DNA from: a virus | Virus record (IMG/VR): IMGVR_UViG_3300031722_000008 | Coordinates: 96,541 to 160,540 of that record | Direction: 5' to 3' (one strand) | DNA: 64,000 nt | In this document: positions 1 to 56,755 of the stretch, piece after piece | How positions within the stretch are numbered: the first letter of the stretch is position 1 | How the letters are laid out: each line of letters opens with the position of its first letter | Made by a program: the position numbers and the translations under genes | Notes under the pieces: generated by a model | The model's input: only the letters and a program-made list of their open reading frames with translations | The model's database searches: none | What the model was told of the DNA's origin: nothing

Positions 1-602
1 TAGGTGAATATAAATCCAAAAAAGAGCAAATGGAGAAAGTGGCATCATGTACCGATGTATCCGAAGAAGCTATAAAATTACTTGATGAAGCTATTGATAT
101 TAATGAAAAAATAAGCACAATTAAGAAAACATTAGATTCTCTTAATTCTTATAAAAAGAAGTCTGCATCAGCTAAAGAAATAATTGACAGGGTAAGCATA
201 GAAGATATTAGTGTTGCTATTGAGCAAATCGATGAGATTATATTATTGACAACTAATATTAAAAATATGAAAGATAGAAATGCCCGATTGAAAGAACTAC
301 TCAAAAAGAAATTTGAATTAGAGGAATTACCAAAAAGCGAAGATATTGATTCAGTTATTGAAAATTTAGATAAAGGAATAGAAATTCTAGAATCTCTATC
401 TAGAATAAAACCTGTTAATGATAAATATAAGAAAGAAATTTTAAGAAAAGAAAATGGAGAAAAGGTTATTGAAGATTTAGACAAAAAACATGATGACGTA
501 GTTGAAGAATACAAAAATGGATTACGTGAGTCAAAACGTTGCGAAGTATGTATGTCCGTAATGACAGAAGAACATATTCACAATATAGAAGAATATATGT
601 AG
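1..602 (+). CDS. Coiled-coil ATPase, probable N-terminal half of a split SMC/Rad50-like protein (5' end outside window)
   Basis: The reading frame is open to the left edge, so the start is missing; the first internal Met is at 30. The visible 190 residues from that Met are almost entirely Glu/Lys/Ile-rich heptad-like helix, as in the arm of an SMC, Rad50 or SbcC protein. At the C-terminus is C-x2-C followed by H-x-H (C171, C174, H182, H184 counted from Met 30). This is a possible zinc site where Rad50 arms carry their CxxC zinc hook. The protein stops just after it, as if cut at the hook. A gene at 5372 encodes what looks like the missing C-terminal ATPase lobe. The stop codon abuts the polymerase ribosome binding site, so the two are probably one operon. 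The Walker A part would lie outside the window, so the ATPase assignment is inferred; it could be an unrelated coiled-coil protein. Confidence 0.55.
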   Translation, partial: GEYKSKKEQMEKVASCTDVSEEAIKLLDEAIDINEKISTIKKTLDSLNSYKKKSASAKEIIDRVSIEDISVAIEQIDEIILLTTNIKNMKDRNARLKELLKKKFELEELPKSEDIDSVIENLDKGIEILESLSRIKPVNDKYKKEILRKENGEKVIEDLDKKHDDVVEEYKNGLRESKRCEVCMSVMTEEHIHNIEEYM

Positions 603-613
603 GAGGGTCAATT

Positions 614-3600
614 ATGGCATGCAAATTTTATCAGTTACACGATCATACAGAGAAAAGCTTAAATGATGGTATGATTAAAGTTAAAAAGCTTGCAAAGAAA
701 TTAAAAGAACAGGGCGTAGATAAATTTGCTGTTACTGAACATGGAGAAATGATGGATATGCCCGCAGCGTATTTAGCGCTTAAAGATGAAGATATCGAAC
801 TTATCGTTGGAATGGAAACATATGTTGCTCCAAGAAAAAGAAGTGATAAGGAAAAAAGCGAAGGTGATGATGCTAATTATCATCTAGTACTTCTTGCGGA
901 AAACAACGAAGGCTATGATAACCTTAAAATCCTTGCATCTGAAGCTGCACTGAACGGATTTTACTATAAGCCTAGAGTAGATAAGGAACTTCTTAGACAA
1001 TACCATAAGGGCATCATAGCATCAAGTGCTTGTCTTGGAGGAAGTATAAATCAATTCCTTTTAGAAGATAAATATGAAGAAGCTAAATTAGAGGCTCTTG
1101 AATATTTAGATATATTTGGTGAAGGGAATTTCTTCTTAGAACTTCAAAGGCATGGACTTAGAGAACAAGAGCAGATTGAGCCTATGATTCTTAGATTAAG
1201 TAGAGAAACTGGAATACCACTCATAGCAACTAATGATTGTCATTACCTAAATAAAGAAGATTGGGAAGCTCACGATATACTTATGGCAATTCAAGCAGGA
1301 ACAACTATTGATGATACTAAGAGAAAAATTTATACTTCTCATGAGTTTTATGTAAAGTCTCCCGAAGAAATGATTCATCTGTTTCGTGACGTACCCGAAG
1401 CTATAGAAAACACCGTAAGAATAGCAGATAGGTGTCACGTTGAATTAGAATTTGGAGTTAATAAAATACCACCATTCAAACTTCCAAATGGATACAAAGG
1501 CACGGAGAATGATTTTTTAAGGGAAATAGTTGAAGGCAATGCTAAAATAAAATATTCAGGAATATCAGAAGAAGTTCAAGAAAGAATAGATTTTGAACTT
1601 GAAGTAATTGAAAGAATGGGATATGTAAACTACTTCCTTATTAATTGGGACTTCTTTAGATTCTGTAGAGAGGGTACTTATGAAATAGAAGATGCTCCAA
1701 ATACTGATTGGGACCCAATACTAACAGGTCCTGGTAGAGGTTCGGGAGCTGGATCAATAGTTGCTTATTGTACTGATATTACTAAAATTGAACCACTCCA
1801 GTTCAATTTATTATTTGAAAGATTCTTATCGCCGGAAAGAGTATCAATGCCGGATATCGATAGTGATTTCGAAGATACTCGAAGACAAGAAGTTATTGAT
1901 TATGTTGTATATAAATATGGAAGAGAATGTATATCTCAAATAATAACTTTTGGAACACTAGCAGCGAGAGCAGTAATAAGAAGAGTGGGGAAAGCATTGG
2001 ATTATCCATACGCAGTATGTGACAAAATAGCAAAATCTATACCTGCAGAAGTTGGAATAACAATAGAAAAGGCACTGGCAGTAAATCAGTCACTTAGAAA
2101 AGCATATGATACTGATAAGAGTATAAAGCGCTTATTGGACTTCTCTATGCAATTAGAAGGTTTAGTTACTAGTTGTAGTACTCATGCGGCAGGAGTACTA
2201 ATAACTGATAAGAAAGGTGTTACAGCCCATGTTCCTTTATGGGAAAATAAAGGTGGAATTGTTGCTCAATTCTCTAAGGATTATATTGAGATGCTAGGAC
2301 TTCTTAAGATGGATTTCTTAGGACTTGGTACATTAGGTATTCTTGGTGATGCAAAAAGAATGATTAGAGCAAATCATGGAGTTAATATTGATTTTGATGA
2401 ATTATATAAACTACCAACAATGGAACCACTACAACTTATAAGGGATGGAAAGACTGAATGCTTATTCCAATTAAATGGAGCAGGTATGACAGCATTTATG
2501 AAAGAATTAAAGCCAAACAGTATAGAAGATATAATTCTAGGTATCTCTATGTACAGACCAGGACCTATGGCTGAAATACCAAAACTTCTATATAGTAAAA
2601 GAAATCCTAATAGTATCACATATGAGGTTGATGGACTTAAATATATTCTTGACCCTACTTATGGAAGTATTGTATATCAGGAACAATGTATGCAAATAGT
2701 TGTTGCGATAGCAGGATTCTCTAAGGCAGACAGCGATAACTTTAGGCGTATTATATCTAAGAAGAAATTAAAAGAAATGCCAAAACAACGTGAATGGTTC
2801 GTTCATGGAAGAAAGAAAGATGATTATGATTATGAAGGGCATCTTAGGCACTACAAAGCAGATATACTAGGAGGAGTAGCTTTAGGTCATAGCGAAGAGG
2901 CACTGAATAAGTTATTCGATAAGATGGTTGACTTCGCCGCTTATGCTTTCAATAAATCCCATGCTGCTGCTTATGCTTTTGTTGGATATTTAACTGCATG
3001 GTTTATGAAATATTATCCTGTAGAATTTATGGCTGCTAATCTTAATGCTGTTCAAAAGAATAGAGCCAAGATTGCGCGGTATATGAATTATGCAAGGAAA
3101 GAATTGAATCTCGAAATTTTAGAGCCTGATATAAATGAATCAGTAGAAAGATTTAAAGCTACAAAAGATGGAAAGATAATGTATACTCTATCAATAAAAG
3201 GAGCATCTATTGATTGTTTAAAGAGAATAGTCGAAGAAAGAGAAACTAATGGTAAATTCGAGAATCTTATCGATTTTATAGCTAGAACGAGAAATTTCCT
3301 AGATAAAAAGACTTATGAGGGATTAATAGGATCAGGAGCATTAAAATGTTTTGGAATAATAAAATCTCAACATTTAGCAGCACTTGATGATTTCTGGGAT
3401 GGATGCCTTAAGAAAACTAAAGATTCCGAAAAGAATGCTTTAAAGAAAAACAAAGACTTTAATTTCGAAGAAATATTGCTAGGAAAAATAGATGGATTAT
3501 TACCAAATATAAATGAATATCCTAAAGATATAGATTTAAGACTTGAAAAAGAGTTCCTAGGAATGTATCTTACTGATAATCCATTATACAGATATGCATA

Positions 3601-4165
3601 TACTATCAAGACTAGCAATAATTTTGAGTTATCTGATGTTGATTATGAAGTTGATGAAGAGACTGGAATTATAATGATGTCGAATGATTCAGTGAGAGAT
3701 AGACAGAAAGTTAGATTTGTAACCATACTAAATGATGTAGCTGAATTAACAACAAAGAAAAAGACTTTAATGGCAAGGCTAGAATTAGAGGATTTAACAG
3801 GAATAGCTGGAGCTTTAATTTGGCCATCAACGTATGATTCAATCAAAAGTAAATTAAAGAAAAATGAAATCTACATGTGTCATGGCTACTTAATGGTATC
3901 ATCAGATGAAGCACCAACCATTGTCGTTGAGGATATGGAACTTATGGAAGAAATGGTTACAGAAAGAGCAATCATTTCAGTTGATAGTAAAGAAGATGCT
4001 GTTGATATCATTAATTACATTAACGATACTGATATGGCAAAAGGTATGACTCCGGTTTATCTAGTTTACAATAATCTCCAAACATTACTAACTAGGAATT
4101 ATTGGATAAACTTAAATCATATGAATCAAAAATATGAAAATAAAATTAAAATAAAGATTTGGTAG
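614..4165 (+). CDS. dnaE: DNA polymerase III alpha subunit, DnaE type
   Basis: Replicative polymerase of about 1183 aa, the usual DnaE length. The N-terminal PHP domain shows H-D-H (9-11) and TEHGEM (41-46). The palm carries GPGRGSGAGS near 370 and the catalytic PDIDSDF at 413-419. YRPGPM and FNKSHAAAYA follow, both family hallmarks. An OB-fold segment lies near 1030-1115. There is no inserted 3'-5' exonuclease domain, so it is DnaE rather than PolC. The start at 614 has AGGAGGG 7 nt upstream; an in-frame start at 539 would overlap the previous gene and lacks such a site. No clear clamp-binding pentapeptide was seen in it. It would copy the phage genome, probably with the host clamp and clamp loader, since neither was recognised in the window. 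Confidence 0.95.
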   Translation: MACKFYQLHDHTEKSLNDGMIKVKKLAKKLKEQGVDKFAVTEHGEMMDMPAAYLALKDEDIELIVGMETYVAPRKRSDKEKSEGDDANYHLVLLAENNEGYDNLKILASEAALNGFYYKPRVDKELLRQYHKGIIASSACLGGSINQFLLEDKYEEAKLEALEYLDIFGEGNFFLELQRHGLREQEQIEPMILRLSRETGIPLIATNDCHYLNKEDWEAHDILMAIQAGTTIDDTKRKIYTSHEFYVKSPEEMIHLFRDVPEAIENTVRIADRCHVELEFGVNKIPPFKLPNGYKGTENDFLREIVEGNAKIKYSGISEEVQERIDFELEVIERMGYVNYFLINWDFFRFCREGTYEIEDAPNTDWDPILTGPGRGSGAGSIVAYCTDITKIEPLQFNLLFERFLSPERVSMPDIDSDFEDTRRQEVIDYVVYKYGRECISQIITFGTLAARAVIRRVGKALDYPYAVCDKIAKSIPAEVGITIEKALAVNQSLRKAYDTDKSIKRLLDFSMQLEGLVTSCSTHAAGVLITDKKGVTAHVPLWENKGGIVAQFSKDYIEMLGLLKMDFLGLGTLGILGDAKRMIRANHGVNIDFDELYKLPTMEPLQLIRDGKTECLFQLNGAGMTAFMKELKPNSIEDIILGISMYRPGPMAEIPKLLYSKRNPNSITYEVDGLKYILDPTYGSIVYQEQCMQIVVAIAGFSKADSDNFRRIISKKKLKEMPKQREWFVHGRKKDDYDYEGHLRHYKADILGGVALGHSEEALNKLFDKMVDFAAYAFNKSHAAAYAFVGYLTAWFMKYYPVEFMAANLNAVQKNRAKIARYMNYARKELNLEILEPDINESVERFKATKDGKIMYTLSIKGASIDCLKRIVEERETNGKFENLIDFIARTRNFLDKKTYEGLIGSGALKCFGIIKSQHLAALDDFWDGCLKKTKDSEKNALKKNKDFNFEEILLGKIDGLLPNINEYPKDIDLRLEKEFLGMYLTDNPLYRYAYTIKTSNNFELSDVDYEVDEETGIIMMSNDSVRDRQKVRFVTILNDVAELTTKKKTLMARLELEDLTGIAGALIWPSTYDSIKSKLKKNEIYMCHGYLMVSSDEAPTIVVEDMELMEEMVTERAIISVDSKEDAVDIINYINDTDMAKGMTPVYLVYNNLQTLLTRNYWINLNHMNQKYENKIKIKIW

Positions 4166-34051: not shown

Positions 34052-36616
34052 CTATGCTATAGTAGTAGCTACAATTACATTAGAGCTGTTTAATGACCAA
34101 TATACTATATATCCATCACTTCTTTTCTCTATAGTAGTAGTATAATCTCTGCTTTCTAGAGCTGTCACAGCAGATATATTTTTAGTTCTCATAAATTTTA
34201 CGAGTAAATTTGCCTTGTTATTTCCAAATGTATTTCCGTTTACGGAACTTTGTAGGTGATTATAGTTGCAGACTGTTCCAAATATATTATAACTACAGTC
34301 ACAAGATAAATTGTTTCCACCGCATCCATTACCAAACGTGTTGTTAAAACTATCACTTGCCATATAATTGTCATTACAGCTATCCCCAAATGTATTATGA
34401 TGACATCCACCAGCAAAACTGTTATTACAACAACTTGAGACAAAATTATTTGAATAGCATGTTGAACCGAATGTGTTACTACCACAGTTTGCACCAAATG
34501 TATTATTGTTACAATTTGCTCCAAATATATTAGAGGCACAACCAGTTCCAAATGTAGTATGGTGACAATCACTACCAAAAACATTTCCACTACAGTTGTC
34601 TGCTAGCACAGAGGCGTTAAAGGCTACTCCAAATATGTTATTGCAACATGTAGTACCTAAAATATTATTATAGAAGCTACTCATGAACATATTACTATTA
34701 CTATTTCTGCCTATTATATTTGAATAACAGTTAGCTCCAAATGTATTAGCTCCACAGCCACTCTTTAGTATATTATTATAACAAGCCCCTCCAAATATAT
34801 TATTCCCAACTGATGCTTCAAATGTATTATCATAGCAACTTGAACCAAAGGAGTTATAATTGCAGTTATTTCCAAATATATTTCTGAAACAGTTTGAACC
34901 AAATGAGTTTCTCATAGTGTCACCTAAAAATGTATTGAGGTCAAACTCACTACCAAAGTCACAACTATAGCAGTATCCAAAGAAAGTATTACTGTAACAG
35001 CCACTTCCAAATGAACAAGTCATTACATCTCCCATAAAGACATTATTAGGTAATAAATATTTGGGATTGTATGATCCATATATAGTAGCTCCGATAGTAA
35101 TTCTATCATGACTCTTCATAAATGTTAGGTATTCTTTATACGTGGCAGACTTCTGCAAGGTGATATCCTGTGTTCCTGTAGTACTGACCTTTAAATCTCT
35201 TAGCATAGCTCCTACAGTTATGTCTTGATATACTGGTATAAAAAATGCACTATCTGTAGCACTTGAAGGTGCAGTATCAAATCTCCAAGCTTTGTATATT
35301 GCGTTGCCACTCTTATATAAAACATTAGGGAGGGCTATTCCGCTAGTCCACACTGAATAGTTAGTTAGTGTTGTGCCTATTAGATATTGACTAGGATTTG
35401 GTAGATACCTAGCCCACAACATTGTTCTCCAGTCCAGAGGTGCATTTGTGCTAACATTAGGACTTTCATCTATTCTTCTAAGTATAAATCCTGTCCTGCT
35501 TGTAGTACCATCTTCGCACAAGTTTAATGAAAAATCATAGTGGATTGTGTCCTGTGGGTAGTCCAGTGAACTACATACTTTTGCAAATGTACTGTCGCTA
35601 ATAGCTGTAAGAACTAATCTTTCAACTGCCATTTCTTTTATAGCAAGTGTATCAGGTTGTTGATACTTAGTTCTGTAATCACTAAGTACGTATTGAGTTC
35701 CTGGAACTAATGTCTTGTTAGTGACCATCAAAGCTAATTCTGTATAAGTCTTGGTTTGTTGTTTCATATCATCAAGACCTTGAACTCTGTTCGAAGGAAC
35801 TGAATTAATTGCTAAAACTGCTCCTGCTACAGCTCCTTCTGTTCCCATTGGAACATTCTTAAATATATACATTTGAACCCAAGAGCCTATCGATACACCT
35901 TCAGTTAATGTTATATATCCTTTTGTTATAGAGTTATCAGGATTCTCAATTGGATTAGTTATAGAAAAACCAGTCCGAAGTGGAATTGCACTATTCTTTG
36001 CAAGAATCAATGTATCTGTATCTTTATCAAACTGCTCATAAGGAATATCAAACTTAGTTTGATTATTCACAGTAGCTTGCTTTTCATATGGGTAAACAAC
36101 TAATTTAGGTATTCCTGTTTCTGTAACCAATTGTACTTGATTATCAGTATATTGCTTTGCGTGTTCTTCAACCAAAGCAATGTTCTCTTGTATAACTTCG
36201 TCAATATAAACACTCATATCCTTAAGAGATAATAGTGCCTTAGCTACATCAATAGATATAATCTTCATGTTAGCCATATTGATTGTCGCAATTGTAAGTG
36301 CGGTTTCATCAGTAGATTCAGCATTTGATATTGTAAATTCAACCCTTTTATCAACATGAGTGTAAGTCATTTGAAGATATAATTTTCCGAAAGATAACAT
36401 CGAAGGATCGATTTCTATAATTCTTGTTGCAGCATCTTCTTCTATAAATGCACCAGTAATTACGCATCTTCCTGGAGGCAACGAAATCGATGTGTCCGAA
36501 GCTTTCGTTGCCTCGAAGCCAAACATTCTTGCATTGCTACCAACAATAAGATCAATCTTATCATTCAATGCTTTACTTGTTAATTTTTCTTGAAATTTAG
36601 TATTTATAATAATCAT
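34052..36616 (-). CDS. Tail fibre with 30-copy nonapeptide beta-solenoid
   Basis: An 854-aa protein. Residues 1-530 are a mixed fibre region, with an N-terminal T4-like collar or attachment segment and a helical VALVEEHAKQYTDN-like stretch near 145. Residues 531-800 are 30 gapless copies of a 9-residue unit, consensus C-x-x-N-x-F-G-x-x, with 21 copies starting in Cys. This predicts a stiff beta-solenoid with inward Phe and stacked Asn and Cys ladders. A 54-aa cap follows, with SDGYIVYW. GGAG precedes the ATG. It is probably a host-contact fibre. Confidence 0.75.
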   Translation of the reverse strand: MIIINTKFQEKLTSKALNDKIDLIVGSNARMFGFEATKASDTSISLPPGRCVITGAFIEEDAATRIIEIDPSMLSFGKLYLQMTYTHVDKRVEFTISNAESTDETALTIATINMANMKIISIDVAKALLSLKDMSVYIDEVIQENIALVEEHAKQYTDNQVQLVTETGIPKLVVYPYEKQATVNNQTKFDIPYEQFDKDTDTLILAKNSAIPLRTGFSITNPIENPDNSITKGYITLTEGVSIGSWVQMYIFKNVPMGTEGAVAGAVLAINSVPSNRVQGLDDMKQQTKTYTELALMVTNKTLVPGTQYVLSDYRTKYQQPDTLAIKEMAVERLVLTAISDSTFAKVCSSLDYPQDTIHYDFSLNLCEDGTTSRTGFILRRIDESPNVSTNAPLDWRTMLWARYLPNPSQYLIGTTLTNYSVWTSGIALPNVLYKSGNAIYKAWRFDTAPSSATDSAFFIPVYQDITVGAMLRDLKVSTTGTQDITLQKSATYKEYLTFMKSHDRITIGATIYGSYNPKYLLPNNVFMGDVMTCSFGSGCYSNTFFGYCYSCDFGSEFDLNTFLGDTMRNSFGSNCFRNIFGNNCNYNSFGSSCYDNTFEASVGNNIFGGACYNNILKSGCGANTFGANCYSNIIGRNSNSNMFMSSFYNNILGTTCCNNIFGVAFNASVLADNCSGNVFGSDCHHTTFGTGCASNIFGANCNNNTFGANCGSNTFGSTCYSNNFVSSCCNNSFAGGCHHNTFGDSCNDNYMASDSFNNTFGNGCGGNNLSCDCSYNIFGTVCNYNHLQSSVNGNTFGNNKANLLVKFMRTKNISAVTALESRDYTTTIEKRSDGYIVYWSLNSSNVIVATTIA
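34217..35026 (-). repeat. 30 tandem 27-bp units encoding the nonapeptide solenoid
   Basis: Thirty in-frame 27-bp units with no insertion or deletion. The DNA has diverged widely while the C-x-x-N-x-F-G-x-x pattern is kept, so selection is on the protein. Confidence 0.9.
36475..36514. repeat. 12-bp perfect inverted repeat inside the solenoid fibre gene
   Basis: GAGGCAACGAAA (36475-36486) and TTTCGTTGCCTC (36503-36514) with a 16-nt loop, about 35 codons into the gene. Confidence 0.85.
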
Positions 36617-39301: not shown

Positions 39302-41125
39302 TTAAGAATTAATTATAGATATCGAAAATCTATTTGCGTTCAATATTGGGTATTCTATTTTCTCAATAGGTAATACACCATCAATTGCTTTTTGACTTCC
39401 ATCTGTAGGTATCTCTTCTTTAATATCGCTTGGCATATAAAATACTTCAAAAGGTAATGGAATGTAATTTATCATATCTTTAACCGATACATCTGTATAT
39501 AGCCAACCAACTAAATCAGATTCTTCTACGGTATCACCCATTTTGTAATTACTGAAATATGAAATTATAGAAGCTTTTATTCTAGTTTCAAGAACCTTCC
39601 TATCCATACTCTTATATACTGCTGTAGGCTTAACTCTAAATTGAATACTTACTGGAACTGGTATAGCTTCCTTACCTATTACATCAGTAGTTATAATTCT
39701 GTTATTGACTAAATTTAATGAATCTCTTAAACGCCTTAATGTCCTGTTCGATGTATATCCAATTAATATTGGCATTCCATTGAAAAATTCCGAGCATTCC
39801 TCACTCTTTATTACTAGGGTACACTCTTCATTTGTAGTACCTGAAATGCCCACTTTGTTTATACTTATTCTTCTATCCATTTCAGTTATAGTAGTTCCCT
39901 TTACATCAATTAAAGAATCTACTGATACTACTGGACTAGCTAGATTTGTTTCGGTTAAGCCAATATCGAAATATCTTTCGCTGTCAGTTTGAACTCCACT
40001 TATTTTGTACGAATATGCTATTTTCATTTGACTTAATATTCCGTTGGAATAAGAACATTCTCCGGTATTATCAATAACTAATCTTGTCTTTCCGGTGCTT
40101 TCTCCAAAAAACTGACTATCTGTTACTGCTGTCACTTCTTTTATTTTTACAGTTTTTGTTGAGTCAGTTAGATTGTATATTTTTATACTGTTTTCAGGAT
40201 TTACTACATCCATTAGGTCAGCAAATTTACAATCAAGAAGTAAAACATCATTATTCAATGTTGTTGATATTTGATTCGTATCATAAACACAACCCTTAAG
40301 ATATAAGTCTACCATTCCACCTACATGTCTAGGTACAATTTCTCCACTATCGCTGAGAACTTTTAAAATATCTCTGGTCATATATTTGTCCTTATATCCA
40401 GAAACATAAACATCTTCAATTTCATTGAATAATTCAAGTATGAAATTTTTATATCCAGGGGCTGTACCTAACTGTCTTGATAAATAGAATTCCCTAATTC
40501 TATTAGCATAATCAACATTAGTTTCTTGATCCAAGCCATCAATGACATCAAACTTATTTACGCAAGAAACCATCGAGTTTGATATAAATGTTTTTGTGAA
40601 AATTATTTCTCCCGCGGTGATGTTATATTTTGTCCCAATTTCTATCGCTGTAATAGGAATGTCTATTTCATATGCAAGATTATTCTTGTTGTAATTTCTT
40701 TGCATATCTGCGGCATACAGAAGTATCGTTGATTTAGTTTGATATTGCAATCCTGAATTTGTAGTAAATGTTGCTCCTGTAGGAATTTTTATAACGAAGT
40801 CAGGATCGTCTAAATTTAAATTAGTGAATTTAAGAGTCAAAGCTGTCGTTGCTGCATAGCCCTTTTTTCTGATTGTAAAATAATTACCTTCACCTATTTC
40901 GTCTAGCTCTGATTCTGTTAAATATTGAGCATTTGATAAGTTAGATTTTAACTCCAATCTATTTAACGATTCAACGAATGGAGTGATTAATTTGATGATT
41001 GGTTTTATGAATAAATCATCAAAAGGAGAATTATCGCTTGTATCTATGTCAGGGTAATATTGTTTAATTGTATCAATTATATATCCCCTAACTATGCTTT
41101 CTAAGTCTAGAACATTTGTAACCAT
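39302..41125 (-). CDS. Baseplate J-like wedge protein
   Basis: A 607-aa protein with the baseplate J pattern: PTGATFTTNSGLQYQT near 115, PITAIEIGTKYNITAGEI near 160, and DVIDGLDQETNVDYANRIREFYLSR near 200, followed by GTAPGYKNFI. P2 gpJ and T4 gp6 have the same core. It forms the ring of the contractile-tail baseplate. AGGTGG precedes the ATG. Confidence 0.9.
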   Translation of the reverse strand: MVTNVLDLESIVRGYIIDTIKQYYPDIDTSDNSPFDDLFIKPIIKLITPFVESLNRLELKSNLSNAQYLTESELDEIGEGNYFTIRKKGYAATTALTLKFTNLNLDDPDFVIKIPTGATFTTNSGLQYQTKSTILLYAADMQRNYNKNNLAYEIDIPITAIEIGTKYNITAGEIIFTKTFISNSMVSCVNKFDVIDGLDQETNVDYANRIREFYLSRQLGTAPGYKNFILELFNEIEDVYVSGYKDKYMTRDILKVLSDSGEIVPRHVGGMVDLYLKGCVYDTNQISTTLNNDVLLLDCKFADLMDVVNPENSIKIYNLTDSTKTVKIKEVTAVTDSQFFGESTGKTRLVIDNTGECSYSNGILSQMKIAYSYKISGVQTDSERYFDIGLTETNLASPVVSVDSLIDVKGTTITEMDRRISINKVGISGTTNEECTLVIKSEECSEFFNGMPILIGYTSNRTLRRLRDSLNLVNNRIITTDVIGKEAIPVPVSIQFRVKPTAVYKSMDRKVLETRIKASIISYFSNYKMGDTVEESDLVGWLYTDVSVKDMINYIPLPFEVFYMPSDIKEEIPTDGSQKAIDGVLPIEKIEYPILNANRFSISIINS

Positions 41126-41144: not shown

Positions 41145-41885
41145 TTAATTGTTTACCATGAACGAGAAGGCTACGGTCTTGCCTAATTTGTTTCGCACTT
41201 GAGTTGTTATATAACAAGTACACTCCTCTCTAACAAATATTATATCTTTTACCTCAACAGAATCCAAAGCCTCTTCCAGAGAAACGGCATTTCCTGCATT
41301 AATTTGTTCTAATTGAGATCTCATAATTTGATCTCCAACATCTTGTATTGATGATGAAATTGATAAAGATAATTCTATTTCATTATACACATTTTCAGCT
41401 AATATATCAGTTATGTTGCTTCCATAACCATCAGCTTGTTTCTCTGTAAAAAGAACTTTAATAAAATCTTGTGATAGTTTCGCAACACCACTAATTGTTT
41501 CAGCATCATTTGAATTAAATAAATCTACGTACCATCCATTATTACCACATCTCTCGCATATCTCACTCTTAGATTTTCTTGTTACTGTTTTTACATAAGC
41601 ACCCCTTATATAATAATTTTGTCCTACAGAAGGACAATTATTATTTTGGTCAATCCATTCTATTATATTGATTGATACCTTTTGTTTGTAATCAACATTT
41701 GGGGAATATTCCGTATTCTTTGATTCATTCAAAAGCTCATCTATTCTGATAAATTCAATATTAGTAGGAACCTTGTCAGGGAAACCTACAATCACATTTC
41801 TTGTCATTAAAATATCTCCATATTCTTTTGTTGTATCTACAATGATGTGGTCACAAGGATAAACTATTTTAGGCGCTAAACTCAT
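41145..41885 (-). CDS. Baseplate protein with CxxC zinc-like site
   Basis: About 246 aa from ATG 41885 (AAAGGAG upstream; start overlaps the previous stop as ATGA). ICERCGNNGWYVDLF (near 115) is a single zinc-ribbon-like knuckle, also seen in the neck protein at 58753. A second Cys pair CTC lies near the end. It lies directly upstream of baseplate J, where a gp25- or wedge-like protein is usual, but I cannot assign it to that family. Confidence 0.6.
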   Translation of the reverse strand: MSLAPKIVYPCDHIIVDTTKEYGDILMTRNVIVGFPDKVPTNIEFIRIDELLNESKNTEYSPNVDYKQKVSINIIEWIDQNNNCPSVGQNYYIRGAYVKTVTRKSKSEICERCGNNGWYVDLFNSNDAETISGVAKLSQDFIKVLFTEKQADGYGSNITDILAENVYNEIELSLSISSSIQDVGDQIMRSQLEQINAGNAVSLEEALDSVEVKDIIFVREECTCYITTQVRNKLGKTVAFSFMVNN

Positions 41886-42544
41886 TGCAATTCTCCTTTC
41901 CAATCAATACACTCTTTTGTCAATATACTGATAATTGACTCTCTTGTTTCTTCTAAGAGAGGAGGGTAGGCTTCTGCACTTATATAATTTTTATTTAAAT
42001 AATAAATACAAAAACTACATGCCTCTAAAAGATAGTCTGATTCTTTAATTTTCATTCTTATATTGTTACATAGTGATGCCAACTCTTCTGCTTTTGTCCT
42101 AGCAGAGATTACGAAATCCACCACTTTACTTGAAGATATAGGACTTATATCAACTGACTTTTTTATATCATACTTAATTATTGAAGAAATCCTAGATTGG
42201 ATATTCTCAAGTTGAGTACATAGATTTTGGTCATTAGAATAAGTAATCCTGGTTGATATGTTGCTAGTTAAATTTGTTAGTGCCGAAATTTTATCATTCT
42301 CTAAAGTTTTATTATTTGTATCTATTATTGCATCAATCAAGAAATCAATGTATTCAGAACATATAGTTCTAGTACTAAAATTTATTGCGTCTTGTATCTC
42401 TGAATTGACGTACGTTAGTTCAGAGAGTAATGAGGCCTCTATATCAAGAGCAGATTGTTTTATTTTAGCAATGCTATTTACATTTTCTGTAAATAGCATT
42501 GCTAACGAATATTCCACTATTGATTTTATATCTTCACTATTCAT
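41882..42544 (-). CDS. Hypothetical helical baseplate-operon protein
   Basis: A 220-aa, nearly all-helical protein with many Ser, Ile and Asn. It begins 1 nt before the end of the sigma-like gene and ends in the start of the next. An 18-bp inverted repeat lies in its first codons (42465-42505). Function unknown. Confidence 0.65.
   Translation of the reverse strand: MNSEDIKSIVEYSLAMLFTENVNSIAKIKQSALDIEASLLSELTYVNSEIQDAINFSTRTICSEYIDFLIDAIIDTNNKTLENDKISALTNLTSNISTRITYSNDQNLCTQLENIQSRISSIIKYDIKKSVDISPISSSKVVDFVISARTKAEELASLCNNIRMKIKESDYLLEACSFCIYYLNKNYISAEAYPPLLEETRESIISILTKECIDWKGELQ
42465..42505. repeat. 18-bp perfect inverted repeat inside a baseplate-operon gene
   Basis: TTAGCAATGCTATTTACA (42465-42482) and its reverse complement (42488-42505) with a 5-nt loop. 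It lies about 13-26 codons after the start of the 220-aa gene. Confidence 0.95.
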
Positions 42545-43452
42545 TAAATCATCCCTTTATTTTCATAAAATTTCCTGAAATTCTCTAAAAGTTGATTTGC
42601 TCTGTAGAATGATAATCCATTTTCTATTGCTATCTTTGAAGACAATCCTTTTAATTTACTTCCTTTGAATTCACCAATTCCCAAATAAGCCATTAAGAAT
42701 CTTCTCTCATTCTTGTTAGTTGTAAAACTTCTTATATGCTCTATTGCCTGTCTTGATTTTACATCATTATTTAAGATATCATTTATATCTTCCGTTCCAT
42801 GCATAACATCTTCAAAAGTTAAACTCTCAGCCCCCGAAGCATTTTCTTTTCCTATAATAGCAGAGCCGCTTAATTCCTTTGTATCATAATGTCTAATTCT
42901 TTCAATTTCTTTTAAGGTTAAGCTTGGAGCATATCCCATATCTTTTTGAATGAAATCTAGCAACTCTTTATCTGTTGGCTTTCTTCCTAGTTTTGGATTT
43001 AGCATAGATTCAGCGTTAACTATATTATTCTTGTAACTATTAAGATTAGATGCCATCTGTATTGTATTTTGCGATGTTTCTTTCTTATAAAGTTTATCAA
43101 GTTCAAAGTTTATCTTATTAGTGAAATAAGTTATAGGTTTTATTCCACTCTTTAAATCAAAACTTCTAATACCATTCTTCAATGCACCTACAGCTAATTG
43201 ATATGTCATATCATAACCTACAACTTTCTTTGCTCTTGAAGCATTAACTAATCTTGATATTTGACCTCTGTACATTGATAGTAATTGCTCTTCTGCGAAG
43301 AAATCTTTGTATAGTTGGACCTGCTGTATTAATACCAATTCTTTTTTAGTTTGCATATCTGTTATATTATCGAAATTACTTTTTACTGTATTCTGCTCGT
43401 TAGAGAAACTGCTCATTCCTAATTTTTCTAGTAAATTCCCATATTCTTTCAT
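42544..43452 (-). CDS. Sigma-70-like factor inside the baseplate operon
   Basis: A 302-aa protein. The region 2 pattern is LLSMYRGQISRLVNASRA (57-74) and YQLAVGALKNGIRSFDLKSG (84-103) with KPITYFTNKINFEL (105-118), as in sigma factors (A-x-x-F-D-x-x-x-G-x-K-x-x-T-Y). Region 3 shows GRKPTDKELLDFI (156-168). Region 4 shows ERRFLMAYLGIGEFKG to AIENGLSFYRANQLLENFRKF (249-295), which fits a helix-turn-helix. It would redirect host RNA polymerase to phage promoters. AGGAGG precedes the ATG. Being in the late operon it may be a late or packaged factor. No search was run, so a structural helical protein is still possible. Confidence 0.7.
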   Translation of the reverse strand: MKEYGNLLEKLGMSSFSNEQNTVKSNFDNITDMQTKKELVLIQQVQLYKDFFAEEQLLSMYRGQISRLVNASRAKKVVGYDMTYQLAVGALKNGIRSFDLKSGIKPITYFTNKINFELDKLYKKETSQNTIQMASNLNSYKNNIVNAESMLNPKLGRKPTDKELLDFIQKDMGYAPSLTLKEIERIRHYDTKELSGSAIIGKENASGAESLTFEDVMHGTEDINDILNNDVKSRQAIEHIRSFTTNKNERRFLMAYLGIGEFKGSKLKGLSSKIAIENGLSFYRANQLLENFRKFYENKGMI

Positions 43453-44409
43453 TTATTGAACCTCCTTCTCGACAATAAAATCCTTACACTTTATTTTAAT
43501 TGTACCATCTTTATTGAAATAAAATGAACCTTTTTCAATATTATCTTTTTTATACTTCACAGAGAAAGCAATGTTGCCTTGCAAATTATATTCAGTATCA
43601 CCTTTCTCTACTGTCAGAGATTCTGTTTCAATATCTGAATTATAATTAGTTACAATATTATTTTTCAGCTCCTTAAGTTTTTCTATTGAAGCTGAATCTC
43701 CTAACTCTATGTTATTATTAAAATTTTCAACCACCTCTATCAAAGAGCCTAGTTTATTTATCAAAGTTATACTGTCATTAATAACTTCTGTTTTTGTACT
43801 GCTATCTATTTCAGAATTATTTATAAATGCTGTTTTATCCTTTTGATAATTCTTTTTTGATGTATTGAAAAAAATTTCTTTTGAACTCCCCATATTAACA
43901 TTATTAAGATTTTCTTTATATGACCTAGAGAACCCATCCCCTTCAAGTAATTCATTTTTCGTTGATATCTTGACCTCCCCATCTCTCATTGAAAGCATTG
44001 AATTCAATGCTTTCAATGAGAGAGAATGATCCTTAGATAACTTAAGAAATACATTATCATTACCTATTCTAGCTTCTCCGGTAAGTAAAGTTTCATCTGT
44101 TAATGAGTCTGGGATTGTTGCAATCAGAATTGGCTTGTGCTGACTAGAAATTAGAACAACACCAATCTGTTTAATTGTTGGAAACATCTTAAATGACATA
44201 TCGCTACCTATTATATTTGTTCCAATAAGTACATCTTTCATTAGGGAACTTGTAGAGGGGATAGATATATTTACTGTCATTTTAGACTCATTAATAGATT
44301 CAACCTTGCATATTAGCGTTGCAGCATTAGTATCTTTTTTAAATCTATTGAAAGTTTGTATATTTTCATTTATTTGTCTTCTTGTTTCATTTATTTCAGA
44401 GTAATTCAT
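43453..44409 (-). CDS. Baseplate spike-like protein
   Basis: A 318-aa protein. The N-terminal 120 aa reads as an OB-fold-like beta barrel (ATLICKVESINESKMTVNISIP, GVVLISSQHKPILIATIP), like the start of gpV or gp5 spike proteins. A helical middle follows, then a beta-rich end (NIAFSVKYKKDN to DGTIKIKCKDFIVE) of a possible needle. It follows the hub gene, the usual spike position. A 42-bp palindrome lies inside. The call rests on position plus pattern. Confidence 0.55.
   Translation of the reverse strand: MNYSEINETRRQINENIQTFNRFKKDTNAATLICKVESINESKMTVNISIPSTSSLMKDVLIGTNIIGSDMSFKMFPTIKQIGVVLISSQHKPILIATIPDSLTDETLLTGEARIGNDNVFLKLSKDHSLSLKALNSMLSMRDGEVKISTKNELLEGDGFSRSYKENLNNVNMGSSKEIFFNTSKKNYQKDKTAFINNSEIDSSTKTEVINDSITLINKLGSLIEVVENFNNNIELGDSASIEKLKELKNNIVTNYNSDIETESLTVEKGDTEYNLQGNIAFSVKYKKDNIEKGSFYFNKDGTIKIKCKDFIVEKEVQ
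43982..44023. repeat. 42-bp perfect palindrome inside the spike-like gene
   Basis: The left arm 43982-44002 (core TTGAAAGCATTGAA) is followed at once by its exact reverse complement 44003-44023. 21-bp arms, no spacer, no T tract. Confidence 0.97.
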
Positions 44410-44426: not shown

Positions 44427-47393
44427 TTATAATTTTCCTGAATTACTAAAACCCGTATTTACTGCAAATGGAGCATCTGCATATCTACCAATAGACACTG
44501 AACTTATTAGATCATTAGCTCTCTTTACGGTAGTCGCAAGTCTAACAATTCTATCTGATACTGTTTTATTTTGTGAAGCGCCACTAGTACATAATGCGTA
44601 CTTCTGATTCAATTTTAACTGTACTTCTTCTATTGTCATATCAGAACCTAAGTCTGCGGTTGATGAAGAAGATGAATATTGAGATGTAATTGGAGGAGTA
44701 TCTGTTGGTGATGCAATTGCACTAGCTGGTTCGGAAGTTTTTGTGATGTAATTAGCGCTTGACCATGCATCAGCACCATTCCAAACAATATTATACCAAC
44801 CATCATTTTCTGCGATTATTTGTACGGTGTCTCCATCCCACAAAGAACCTATTTGTCCAAAATTAGTTCCTGGACCAGTTCTTACACAAAGACCAATACT
44901 ACTTACGTGAACCGTTCCTGCTCCATAACCACCACCAGAACCTGAACTAGCACTTGTTGACCCACCTCCTGTAGACGAAGTAAGTTTTGCCCAAGTCAAT
45001 GGTCCAATTTGTCCATCTACAGATAATGAATTGTCTGTTTGATATGACATGACAGCACTTTGAGTTTGAGGACCATACCAACCATCTATATTTCCAGGAC
45101 TATAACCTGCATTATTTAATAGGTTTTGAGCGCTTGTTACATCTTCACCTTGAAGCATAGGGCTCGTAACTTTCAATAACCTATCTAACGTTGGTGCATT
45201 AGATATAGATGAACCTCCACTAGAACTGGTAGTTGTTACTGGTTCTGAAATAGCTTGAGCATATGCAGTTCCAGCTGACTTATTTGAATAAAAATATTCA
45301 AAGTATGGATCATTAGAGAGAACTTCTTGCGTAGTTGTTTTTGTAGCTGAATAAAAACCCTTAACTTTAGTACTTACCTCAGCATAATTACAAGCTTCAC
45401 CAAAACTTGTTGGTGTAACAAGCAGTGTATTTACGAAAATATCATCTGATTTTCCAGGTTTTAATCCACCAACAGAATTAGCATTGTTTACAAAATCATC
45501 TTTTCTTCTTCCAAATGACATATTTAAAGAAGTATAGTTTCCTGAAGCATTGCCATAATGATTAACTGAATTAACATAGAATATCTTGTTTACTCTTACA
45601 GGATCAATCCAAACATTAAATCCTGGTCTTATCCATGGCATAGCCATAGTTTGTACACTAGCAACAGTAACACTAGAATTAAGATAGTTAATCATATATC
45701 TTGCATACTTTGCTAATGCCCAATAAGCACTACCATGATTAGATGAAGCCCAATATCCACCTCCAGCAACTACATTTGCAGTAGAGAATTTAATTAATGG
45801 TTGCGAACATTCATAAATTAATGGTCCAAACTTTTTTTCTAAATAGGTTGGTTGAAGTAATGTATCTTCACCAACACTATCAGGAGCAACTTCTACTTTT
45901 GATTGCATTATATTTGCAACACCATCAGACTCAACTAATCTTCTTATGTGCCAGAAACTAGATGGCATAGCTCTTGTTAATACGTTTGTTCCTGATTGTT
46001 GAGCTTCGACTATCTCTGTTTTACTTATAGCCATATATACATGATGGTCACTAGGTAATATTATATCCCCAGGAATAACATCTTCTAAATTTTGAACTTC
46101 CCTACCTTTATTGATTAGAGTGTATGTTGTTTGTCGTTCTCCTCCAAAGCCAACATATCCTGCTTGCCTATAAACATAATCTATAAGTCCAGAACAATCA
46201 TAAGAACTAGGACCTTCTGTTCCCCATATATATGGTTTTCCTACTTGTTGGAGAGCAATAGCTACTGCTCCTTGAGCTATATCTGACCCAGCACTTGCAC
46301 CCCCTGCTGCTGTTGATGCTGATATGGATACTAGACATCCTGTATTGGATTCAGTTCCACCTGACGTAACAGCGACAACTGGAGTGATTAGTGATATTGT
46401 TCTTTCACTTGCGTTCTCATCTGAATGCCATTCATCAAGAGCACCTGTAGCTATTGTTCTTGTGTACATTTGACTAAAATTAGAACTTTCAGTATATGAT
46501 AAAATTAATGCTGGATCTATAACATGATTTTTTAATACATGTTCATTCCAAAATGGAGGTTTAATTCTTATGGTTTCATCTCTGTCTTGATAAAATTCAA
46601 ACATTAGTGATTTCAAAATGTTATTTATCATAACATAAGTTGAATCTACTGAAGTTATAGATGATGTAATTACAAAATCTATAACTTCGATTTTTCTTAA
46701 ATTCTCATCTATATCTCCCATAACAACAACTCTACTAAGTGCATCATCCCATTTAGATACAGTATCATCACCATAATATAAACCATTACTTTTGAGTGTT
46801 TGGTTTGATATTTCTTGCCATGTTTGTGATAAAGTTTTTCCTTTAAATGTAACATCTGCTGATGTATGAACCTTGGATACTGAATCTAATTTTATTCCCT
46901 GAGCTTTCCATTTTAATCTATCTCCAGTAGATAGACTCCCATCAAAAGGAACGGCTATTGGACATACAGTTCTTGTAAGCCAATACATAAAGTCTTGTGC
47001 TTGAAATGATAATTTCTTTTGTCCTCCACTTATAGTTGTTGATTTTCCAGTAATGTTTCCTCCAAATATCTGAACATATTTTCCATTAAAAATATTTTTA
47101 ACAAAAATTCTTACATTGGTCATATTCTCAATACCATCATCTAATCCACCATTCATATAGGTAGCTCCGTCAATTACAGTGTAATTAGGTCCTTGTTCAT
47201 GAATTCTTTTATCAAAATCCGGAACATAAACCATATTGATTGTAGCTGATCCTATACCTACATCAACTCCCATATTTACAGAATAATCTGTTACAAATTG
47301 GTCAACTCTTACATTGTCAAAAAACACTAAATATCCACCATTACCAATAACGACTGGAATTTTTAGATTTTCTGCTGCTACTACATCTGCCAT
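44427..47393 (-). CDS. Baseplate hub / tail lysin: NlpC/P60, peptidoglycan-binding and SH3 domains
   Basis: A 988-aa protein. The N-terminal 350 aa is hub-like. Near 370-490 is an NlpC/P60 domain (GKPYIWGTEGPSSYDCSG with catalytic Cys near 400, and DHHVYMAIS with the His). Near 738-801 is a PG_binding_1 domain (GEDVTSAQNLLNNAGYSPG, DGWYGPQTQSAVMSYQ). Near 824-884 is a bacterial SH3 (LCVRTGPGTNFGQIGSLWDG, GWYNIVW). It cuts peptidoglycan peptides during DNA entry and anchors to the wall. GGAGGAGG precedes the ATG. It is placed after the tape measure and hub genes as usual. Confidence 0.88.
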   Translation of the reverse strand: MADVVAAENLKIPVVIGNGGYLVFFDNVRVDQFVTDYSVNMGVDVGIGSATINMVYVPDFDKRIHEQGPNYTVIDGATYMNGGLDDGIENMTNVRIFVKNIFNGKYVQIFGGNITGKSTTISGGQKKLSFQAQDFMYWLTRTVCPIAVPFDGSLSTGDRLKWKAQGIKLDSVSKVHTSADVTFKGKTLSQTWQEISNQTLKSNGLYYGDDTVSKWDDALSRVVVMGDIDENLRKIEVIDFVITSSITSVDSTYVMINNILKSLMFEFYQDRDETIRIKPPFWNEHVLKNHVIDPALILSYTESSNFSQMYTRTIATGALDEWHSDENASERTISLITPVVAVTSGGTESNTGCLVSISASTAAGGASAGSDIAQGAVAIALQQVGKPYIWGTEGPSSYDCSGLIDYVYRQAGYVGFGGERQTTYTLINKGREVQNLEDVIPGDIILPSDHHVYMAISKTEIVEAQQSGTNVLTRAMPSSFWHIRRLVESDGVANIMQSKVEVAPDSVGEDTLLQPTYLEKKFGPLIYECSQPLIKFSTANVVAGGGYWASSNHGSAYWALAKYARYMINYLNSSVTVASVQTMAMPWIRPGFNVWIDPVRVNKIFYVNSVNHYGNASGNYTSLNMSFGRRKDDFVNNANSVGGLKPGKSDDIFVNTLLVTPTSFGEACNYAEVSTKVKGFYSATKTTTQEVLSNDPYFEYFYSNKSAGTAYAQAISEPVTTTSSSGGSSISNAPTLDRLLKVTSPMLQGEDVTSAQNLLNNAGYSPGNIDGWYGPQTQSAVMSYQTDNSLSVDGQIGPLTWAKLTSSTGGGSTSASSGSGGGYGAGTVHVSSIGLCVRTGPGTNFGQIGSLWDGDTVQIIAENDGWYNIVWNGADAWSSANYITKTSEPASAIASPTDTPPITSQYSSSSSTADLGSDMTIEEVQLKLNQKYALCTSGASQNKTVSDRIVRLATTVKRANDLISSVSIGRYADAPFAVNTGFSNSGKL

Positions 47394-56167: not shown

Positions 56168-56755
56168 CTAACTAAATGAATAGTTTGAACAGAATTCATA
56201 TACGATAGAAACTGATTCAGCAACAAGGATTTGTCCTGCTGAAATACTTTCTTGTCTTGATTGTATCCAACAATTTTTAAATAGTCTTGTGTATCTAGCG
56301 TCATATTTATCTTTAGTAGCACCTTGACCATAGAATACATACATCATATCTAAAGGAATATTAATATCTCTCAAACTTCTGATCCATGTACTTGGTGTTG
56401 CTTGTTTACCACTAAAGCTATTTGGTTGGTATACAAGATTTAAGAAATCTTCTCCTGATAATAGAATTTTTTGGATTTGAATTTGACCTGTTGTTCTTCC
56501 TGGAATGTAATATGGAATATCTGAACCAAGTTCAAATACCATTTCCATTTGTTTATTTTCTCCCCAAGAATATCCTTGAACAACACCAACTCTTGTAAAT
56601 TCATCACTATCATTAGTTCCACTTTTACTTGCTGGTTTTACATACAAAACGCAACGTGCTGCCGATAAAAAACAGTCTGCATCAGCAGCATCTATATTAG
56701 GATCTAAATGGGAATCCTTAAATTCCCAAACATCAGTTAGTCCTCTATTAGCCAT
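56168..56755 (-). CDS. Tail tube protein
   Basis: A 195-aa beta-rich protein directly after the sheath gene, with a strong site (GAGAGGTGA) and followed by a terminator: the order and expression pattern of a tail tube protein. Segments QGYSWGENKQMEMVFELG and QESISAGQILVAESVSIVYEF resemble tube beta strands. Confidence 0.75.
   Translation of the reverse strand: MANRGLTDVWEFKDSHLDPNIDAADADCFLSAARCVLYVKPASKSGTNDSDEFTRVGVVQGYSWGENKQMEMVFELGSDIPYYIPGRTTGQIQIQKILLSGEDFLNLVYQPNSFSGKQATPSTWIRSLRDINIPLDMMYVFYGQGATKDKYDARYTRLFKNCWIQSRQESISAGQILVAESVSIVYEFCSNYSFS

Follow-up and report, generated by a model that had tools for sequence, protein, structure and literature searches.

A divergent sigma-70-family protein encoded among the baseplate genes of tailed phages that carry their own RNA polymerase

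What is a relative of the bacterial sigma factors doing among the genes that build the baseplate of a phage? The question is raised by a gene in a 64,000-nucleotide stretch of viral DNA (the window, to which the positions in Table 1 refer) that forms the right end of the 160,540-base IMG/VR record IMGVR_UViG_3300031722_000008, here G000. An earlier note, made from the sequence of the window, had described this gene as sigma-70-like and as part of the baseplate cluster, and our analysis upholds both the assignment and the exact place. The gene encodes a divergent member of the sigma-70 family in which regions 2, 3, and 4 are all kept. The phenomenon is also broader than that note described, since the same locus recurs in about 20 genomes alongside a phage polymerase. 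We consider it fairly probable that the protein is the promoter-specificity subunit of a multisubunit phage polymerase packaged in the virion.

Membership in the sigma-70 family

Taken by itself, the window protein gives a weak sigma signal. It matched phrog_351 ('RNA polymerase sigma factor') at E=0.0076 and the SigF structure 1l0o at E=0.025, and a Pfam scan of the sequence alone gave no match. Single-sequence scans returned one identical copy from viral contigs and nothing from genome contigs or the phage collection; relatives were gathered after these scans, via synteny and the polymerase. A hidden Markov model built from 25 of these relatives, with the window protein excluded, recovered the window protein at E=4.3e-26, the best non-sigma among 1885 open reading frames (ORFs) scoring 0.87. 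Profile comparison with sigma families, proposed earlier as a check, likewise gave significant matches: hhalign aligned residues 60-168 with canonical phage sigmas (E=8.2e-7), which establishes homology in region 2, and aligned the protein with sigmas of the type found in Salmonella phage Arash at E=1.7e-5. When the family profile, made up mostly of Arash-type rows, was run against PDB sequences, sigma factors accounted for 60 of the 60 best listed matches (top E=7.4e-12).

Structural models point the same way. AlphaFold2 gave a poor predicted local distance difference test (pLDDT) score of 59 for the window protein and 73 for the Arash-type protein, and Foldseek aligned both models with sigma factors over approximately their full length (best E for the window protein, 2.3e-5). 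Foldseek template modeling (TM) scores were low, as is expected if domain placement differs. The reading of regions 2, 3, and 4 in order was borne out by hhalign for region 2 and by the full-length Foldseek alignments for region 3 and for region 4 as a helix-turn-helix, the sequence signal of region 4 being weak. In addition, the Pfam family Sigma70_r3 was found in 9 of the 10 members of alignment A3, and the baseplate sigma of Vibrio phage D181 exceeds the Pfam cut-off for this family.

Conserved position and co-occurrence with a phage polymerase

The sigma gene is part of a minus-strand series that runs from the tape measure through three structural genes, a 988-residue hub, and a 318-residue protein to sigma, and from there to a 220-residue protein (X), a gp25-like protein, and baseplate J. 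The order hub, small spike, sigma, X, gp25, and baseplate J is common to about 20 genomes, and D181 and Arash carry a sigma-like gene at exactly the same place. The gene had been described as lying between spike-like and wedge genes. The gp25-like and baseplate J proteins on one side confirm this; on the other side the spike role is a matter of position, the 318-residue protein having no family match in Pfam or phrog scans.

Outside the window, G000 encodes a fused beta-beta' RNA polymerase of 2328 amino acids in a single open frame, G000:C1:18354-25340(-). The protein has all main beta and beta' domains (Rpb2_6 7.5e-59; Rpb1_2 1.7e-36), and its gene shares a strand with a nearby terminase gene. 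The alignable beta and beta' parts, the NADxDGD motif (here a catalytic NADFDGD), and the terminase, J, sheath, and capsid genes make G000 a member of the multi-subunit-RNAP-encoding (RNA polymerase-encoding) Caudovirales (mReC). A second sigma, canonical in type, 485 amino acids long, and with clear regions 2 and 4, is also encoded outside the window (G000:C1:58326-59783). Arash and D181 likewise have beta, beta', and a second canonical sigma.

The polymerase was present in nine of the nine records that carry a window-, Arash-, or D181-type baseplate sigma and are long enough to judge. Baseplate J is also present in phage G, Mycobacterium phage Tonenili, and the 485-kb phage LR745208, all three of which lack both the polymerase and the baseplate sigma; the polymerase is absent from S-H34 and SCTP-2 as well. 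The sigma gene is therefore not a feature of every phage with this baseplate module. Because the gp25-J module occurs without sigma in these polymerase-less relatives, the baseplate does not need sigma.

An independent sample was obtained by searching IMG/VR with the polymerase rather than with sigma and screening 30 of the records it returned. The baseplate-sigma profile matched 15 of the 30 (E 7.5e-92 to 8.6e-9), among them every one of the 13 records that exceed 140 kb; the sigma-less records were shorter. Sixteen records bore J; in 14 of them sigma preceded it on the same strand, at a distance of 0.9-6.4 kb, and most of these retained the order sigma, X, gp25, J. In the tree of polymerases the baseplate sigma is distributed over the whole clade, so that the gene is probably ancestral.

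One record with polymerase and J and without sigma (G014) was considered as a counterexample and set aside as rearranged or incomplete rather than as a case of loss, since it is a 117-kb contig with no gp25 gene found beside J and with the polymerase gene near J. At this locus (L200, G014:C1:47000-66900) the polymerase gene precedes J on the same strand at a distance of a few genes, and neither sigma nor gp25 was found. Salicola phage SCTP-2 (L031) and a bacterial FliA from a flagellar operon (L032) were examined as matches and dropped, and the annotation 'RNA pol sigma factor' beside the polymerase of Carin-5 was discarded as a precedent for want of Pfam support. In another record (L205; IMG/VR 3300025602_000002, G019) an in-frame TGA falls within the sigma gene, and baseplate J is divided between two ORFs; this relative may decode TGA as an amino acid, or there may be frameshifts in the record.

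Virion association, a promoter-like element, and competing explanations

In published mass spectrometry (MS) of purified Arash particles, the orthologue of the window protein, Gp10, was detected with 24 unique peptides together with beta and beta', and the polymerase proteins gp206 and gp216 were reported in the virion (PMC10585845). We preferred unique peptides to computed spectral counts because the coverage and spectra columns of the published table are internally inconsistent. Expressed as unique peptides per 100 amino acids (data from PMC10585845), Gp10 had the highest density among the 48 Arash proteins compared (10.3), with values of 9.8 for the major capsid protein, 8.4 for beta, 8.1 for a helicase, and 6.6 for beta'. 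Its baseplate neighbors reached 3.8 (gp8), 1.6 (gp11), 4.2 (gp12), 5.5 (gp13), and 2.1 (gp14). The second Arash sigma, gp196, is absent from the published virion list of 116 proteins. Localization in the virion is an observation on Arash only; in the window phage the sigma would be packaged as well, and carriage of its polymerase in the particle is inferred from homology and gene position. The sigmas of the window subgroup share an N-terminal [ILV][EQ]K...A segment, which resembles a segment on several head-region proteins and may, as a tentative suggestion from the sequence, be a packaging signal.

A promoter-like element provides a further line of evidence. The 15-base element GTATAAGAYATTAAA has 25 copies in G000 at a tolerance of one mismatch or less, all on the plus strand, and 21 of the 25 are intergenic although intergenic DNA makes up 6.7% of the record. 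Exact copies in the window number three, against 0.08 expected (Table 1). No conserved -35 was found with the element, and one copy, at position 56290 of G000, precedes the operon that encodes the second sigma. When 7-mers in front of genes are ranked by enrichment, its core, GTATAAG, comes first in G000 and the related record G008, second in Arash and G016, and sixth in G010; four control sets, namely phage G, Tonenili, three cyanophages, and Carin-5/YerA41, showed no enrichment of it. This core, common to members of the lineage, differs from the host -10 consensus, and the downstream half of the element varies between clades. Arash has 31 copies of GGTATAAG, of which 30 share the strand of its non-structural genes. 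The sole copy on the structural strand precedes the sigma gene by about 300 bp, a placement conserved in seven Arash-like loci (L008 9676, L033-L035, L038, L039, and L202). No enriched element was seen for the structural-strand genes. We propose GGTATAAGTAAAGTGTAA as the predicted candidate promoter sequence on an Arash early fragment.

The conservation of sigma with the polymerase, the presence of both in the particles of one member, and the shared promoter core make a specificity subunit the simplest account. The sigma-70-family protein would be carried in the virion alongside the phage beta-beta' polymerase and would act as its promoter-specificity subunit. Once injected, the holoenzyme would recognize an extended -10-like element with the core GTATAAG and no visible -35, ahead of non-structural genes, and in the window phage the copy before the second-sigma operon would serve a later switch. 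The more general proposal, that a large group of tailed phages brings into the cell a complete bacterial-type holoenzyme (beta-beta' plus the baseplate-operon sigma) and fires host-independent early transcription from a GTATAAG core kept across very different hosts, we regard as evenly poised.

Several observations weigh against this interpretation. The Arash list of 116 proteins is long and includes non-structural proteins and metabolic enzymes, and its unique-peptide column disagrees with those for coverage and spectra (gp183 has two unique peptides and 90% coverage). The presence-absence counts are phylogenetically non-independent. The sigma gene sits among baseplate genes, away from the polymerase gene. 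No enrichment of GTATAAG was seen in the approximately 74 kb of D181 examined, and the second sigma could be the reader of this core; on the supporting side, G010 (152.6 kb) has the element and no clear canonical second sigma. Finally, in sigma-70 numbering, W433 and W434 melt the -10 element and D403 and E407 contact the clamp, and in the alignment these positions are mostly altered in the window protein. At the W433/W434 positions the window protein has N and K and the Arash type has N and W; the Q406 and Y430 positions are retained in the window protein. Note that aromatic -10 melting residues are usual in functional sigmas and are no criterion of homology.

The phage beta' has residues that align with the clamp helices, but they too are altered. 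Since the clamp-helix residues and the sigma residues facing them have both changed, the pattern fits co-evolution. It also fits loss of function, and for this reason we retain as the main alternative, unlikely as we judge it, that a sigma captured long ago has been recruited into baseplate structure or assembly and now binds neither polymerase nor promoter. A structural protein derived from a sigma had been suggested in the earlier note, and the suggestion is strengthened by a position that is constant across about 20 genomes, after the spike and before gp25-J, and by the recovery of the Arash orthologue from particles, in addition to the altered melting and clamp residues of the window subgroup. 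On the other side, the gene is conserved with the polymerase, and relatives with the same gp25-J module and no polymerase lack it. Against exaptation also stand the retention of all three regions, the peptide density of Gp10, which exceeds that of every baseplate neighbor and is near those of beta, helicase, and capsid, and the GTATAAG element that Arash-like phages keep about 300 bp upstream of the gene.

A sigma that redirects the host RNA polymerase, late or early, and is carried over into Arash particles incidentally would account for the sigma fold, the late-operon position, and the many non-structural proteins in the Arash list. We hold this to be improbable. The phage has a second, more canonical sigma, whose Arash counterpart is not among the virion proteins, the clamp-contact residues are unlike those of host-type sigmas, and the gene is conserved alongside the phage's own polymerase. 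The proposal of a late factor, as originally worded, is not supported, given the same second sigma and the presence in the particle of the Arash orthologue but not of the second Arash sigma. Very improbable is an injected protein that competes for the host core polymerase and disturbs host transcription without directing initiation, which would suit a virion-associated orthologue with region 2 and 4 folds retained and promoter-melting residues lost but leaves the strict co-occurrence with the polymerase and the shared phage-specific promoter core unexplained.

Known systems and further features of the phage

Virion polymerases and phage sigmas are both already known kinds. Canonical phage sigmas, of which T4 gp55 is one, resemble the window protein in having sigma-70 regions and may redirect transcription; those examined (cyanophage and SCTP-2) differ in lying outside baseplate clusters, in phages without a multisubunit polymerase of their own. 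The view that the window gene is no ordinary early or middle phage sigma is sustained, in the form of a sigma-70-type protein of the baseplate operon.

Phages phiKZ and AR9 have virion and non-virion polymerases and the sigma-like specificity subunits gp68 and gp226 (PMC7598289, PMC9209446, PMC13282480). They resemble the window phage, with its inferred packaging, in carrying a multisubunit polymerase in the virion, and in them a phage protein confers promoter specificity on the non-virion enzyme. Their beta and beta', however, are divided among 4-5 polypeptides, whereas the window phage has one frame of 2328 amino acids and not a phiKZ-like split. They are also said to lack a recognizable sigma homologue (PMC7824862, PMC7598289), in contrast to the sequence-recognizable sigma-70-family protein and nearly unsplit polymerase found here. 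Reviews describe multisubunit-polymerase (jumbo) phages as without recognizable sigma and sigma-bearing phages as users of the host enzyme (PMC7598289, PMC7824862).

Among the closest precedents is Arash Gp10, annotated as an RpoS-like sigma (PMC10585845), which shares with the window protein the place in the baseplate operon, the sigma regions, a second sigma elsewhere, and phage beta and beta'. The two proteins are about 25% identical, and Arash encodes beta (1525 amino acids) and the C-part of beta' (606 amino acids) as two genes, whereas the window phage has one fused gene. The Arash authors list Gp10 as a particle sigma subunit and suggest early transcription in general terms; the operon and the clade-wide conservation are unmentioned (PMC10585845). 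The mReC phages (Weinheimer and Aylward 2020, PMC7481178), also drawn from IMG/VR, are phages of the same kind, tailed and with beta and beta' that can be aligned, and the text of that paper mentions neither sigma nor virion. What is new is the connection of mReC-type phages with a sigma encoded among baseplate genes and with a common promoter element, and no report of a baseplate-operon sigma-70-family protein carried with a phage polymerase was found in the open-access literature. In one large lineage polymerase and sigma occur together; sigma has a fixed place in the baseplate operon and, in Arash, is present in the particle. This supplies a concrete candidate for how a virion polymerase locates promoters, together with a predicted early promoter, and a bacterial-type sigma that has probably co-evolved with a deeply branching polymerase bears on the evolution of sigma-dependent initiation.

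Table 1. Features of the locus and promoter-like elements, in window positions
Feature	Position	Strand	Remarks
Hub/tail-lysin, 988 aa (amino acids)	44427..47393	(-)	NlpC/P60, PG_binding_1, SH3 domains
318-aa gene, spike position	43453..44409	(-)	role from position alone
Sigma-70-family protein	42544..43452	(-)	302 aa, ATG start; region 2 ~60-135, region 3 ~145-190, region 4 ~230-300
X, 220-aa protein	41882..42544	(-)	position and length only
gp25/sheath-initiator-like protein, CxxC segment	41145..41903	(-)	
Baseplate J-like wedge protein	39302..41125	(-)	Pfam Baseplate_J 5.9e-15; phrog_6 5.8e-30
Promoter-like element GTATAAGATATTAAA	8164..8178	(+)	
Promoter-like element GTATAAGATATTAAA	8871..8885	(+)	
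Promoter-like element GTATAAGATATTAAA	17801..17815	(+)	

In most relatives the place of X between sigma and gp25 is taken by a single gene of 123-280 amino acids, matched by position and length, and phage G has no gene there. X may be a partner or adaptor of sigma. The Arash protein at this place, Gp11, appears in the Arash virion list.

Other features of the phage were recorded along the way. Outside the window, nine minus-strand ORFs in G000:C1:31150-62239, encoding head-region proteins, have a common N-terminal YxxxIEKxA segment, which has 5 interior matches in approximately 40,000 residues. The segment resembles the capsid-targeting sequence of T4 internal proteins and is possibly a head-packaging signal. 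Within the window, an 854-amino acid protein (34052-36616, minus strand) consists in its second half of a long N-x-F-G-x-x-C repeat array with many cysteines and is probably a beta-solenoid fiber protein. The plus strand at 539-4165 encodes a bacterial-type DNA polymerase III alpha subunit of 1208 amino acids with a PHP domain.
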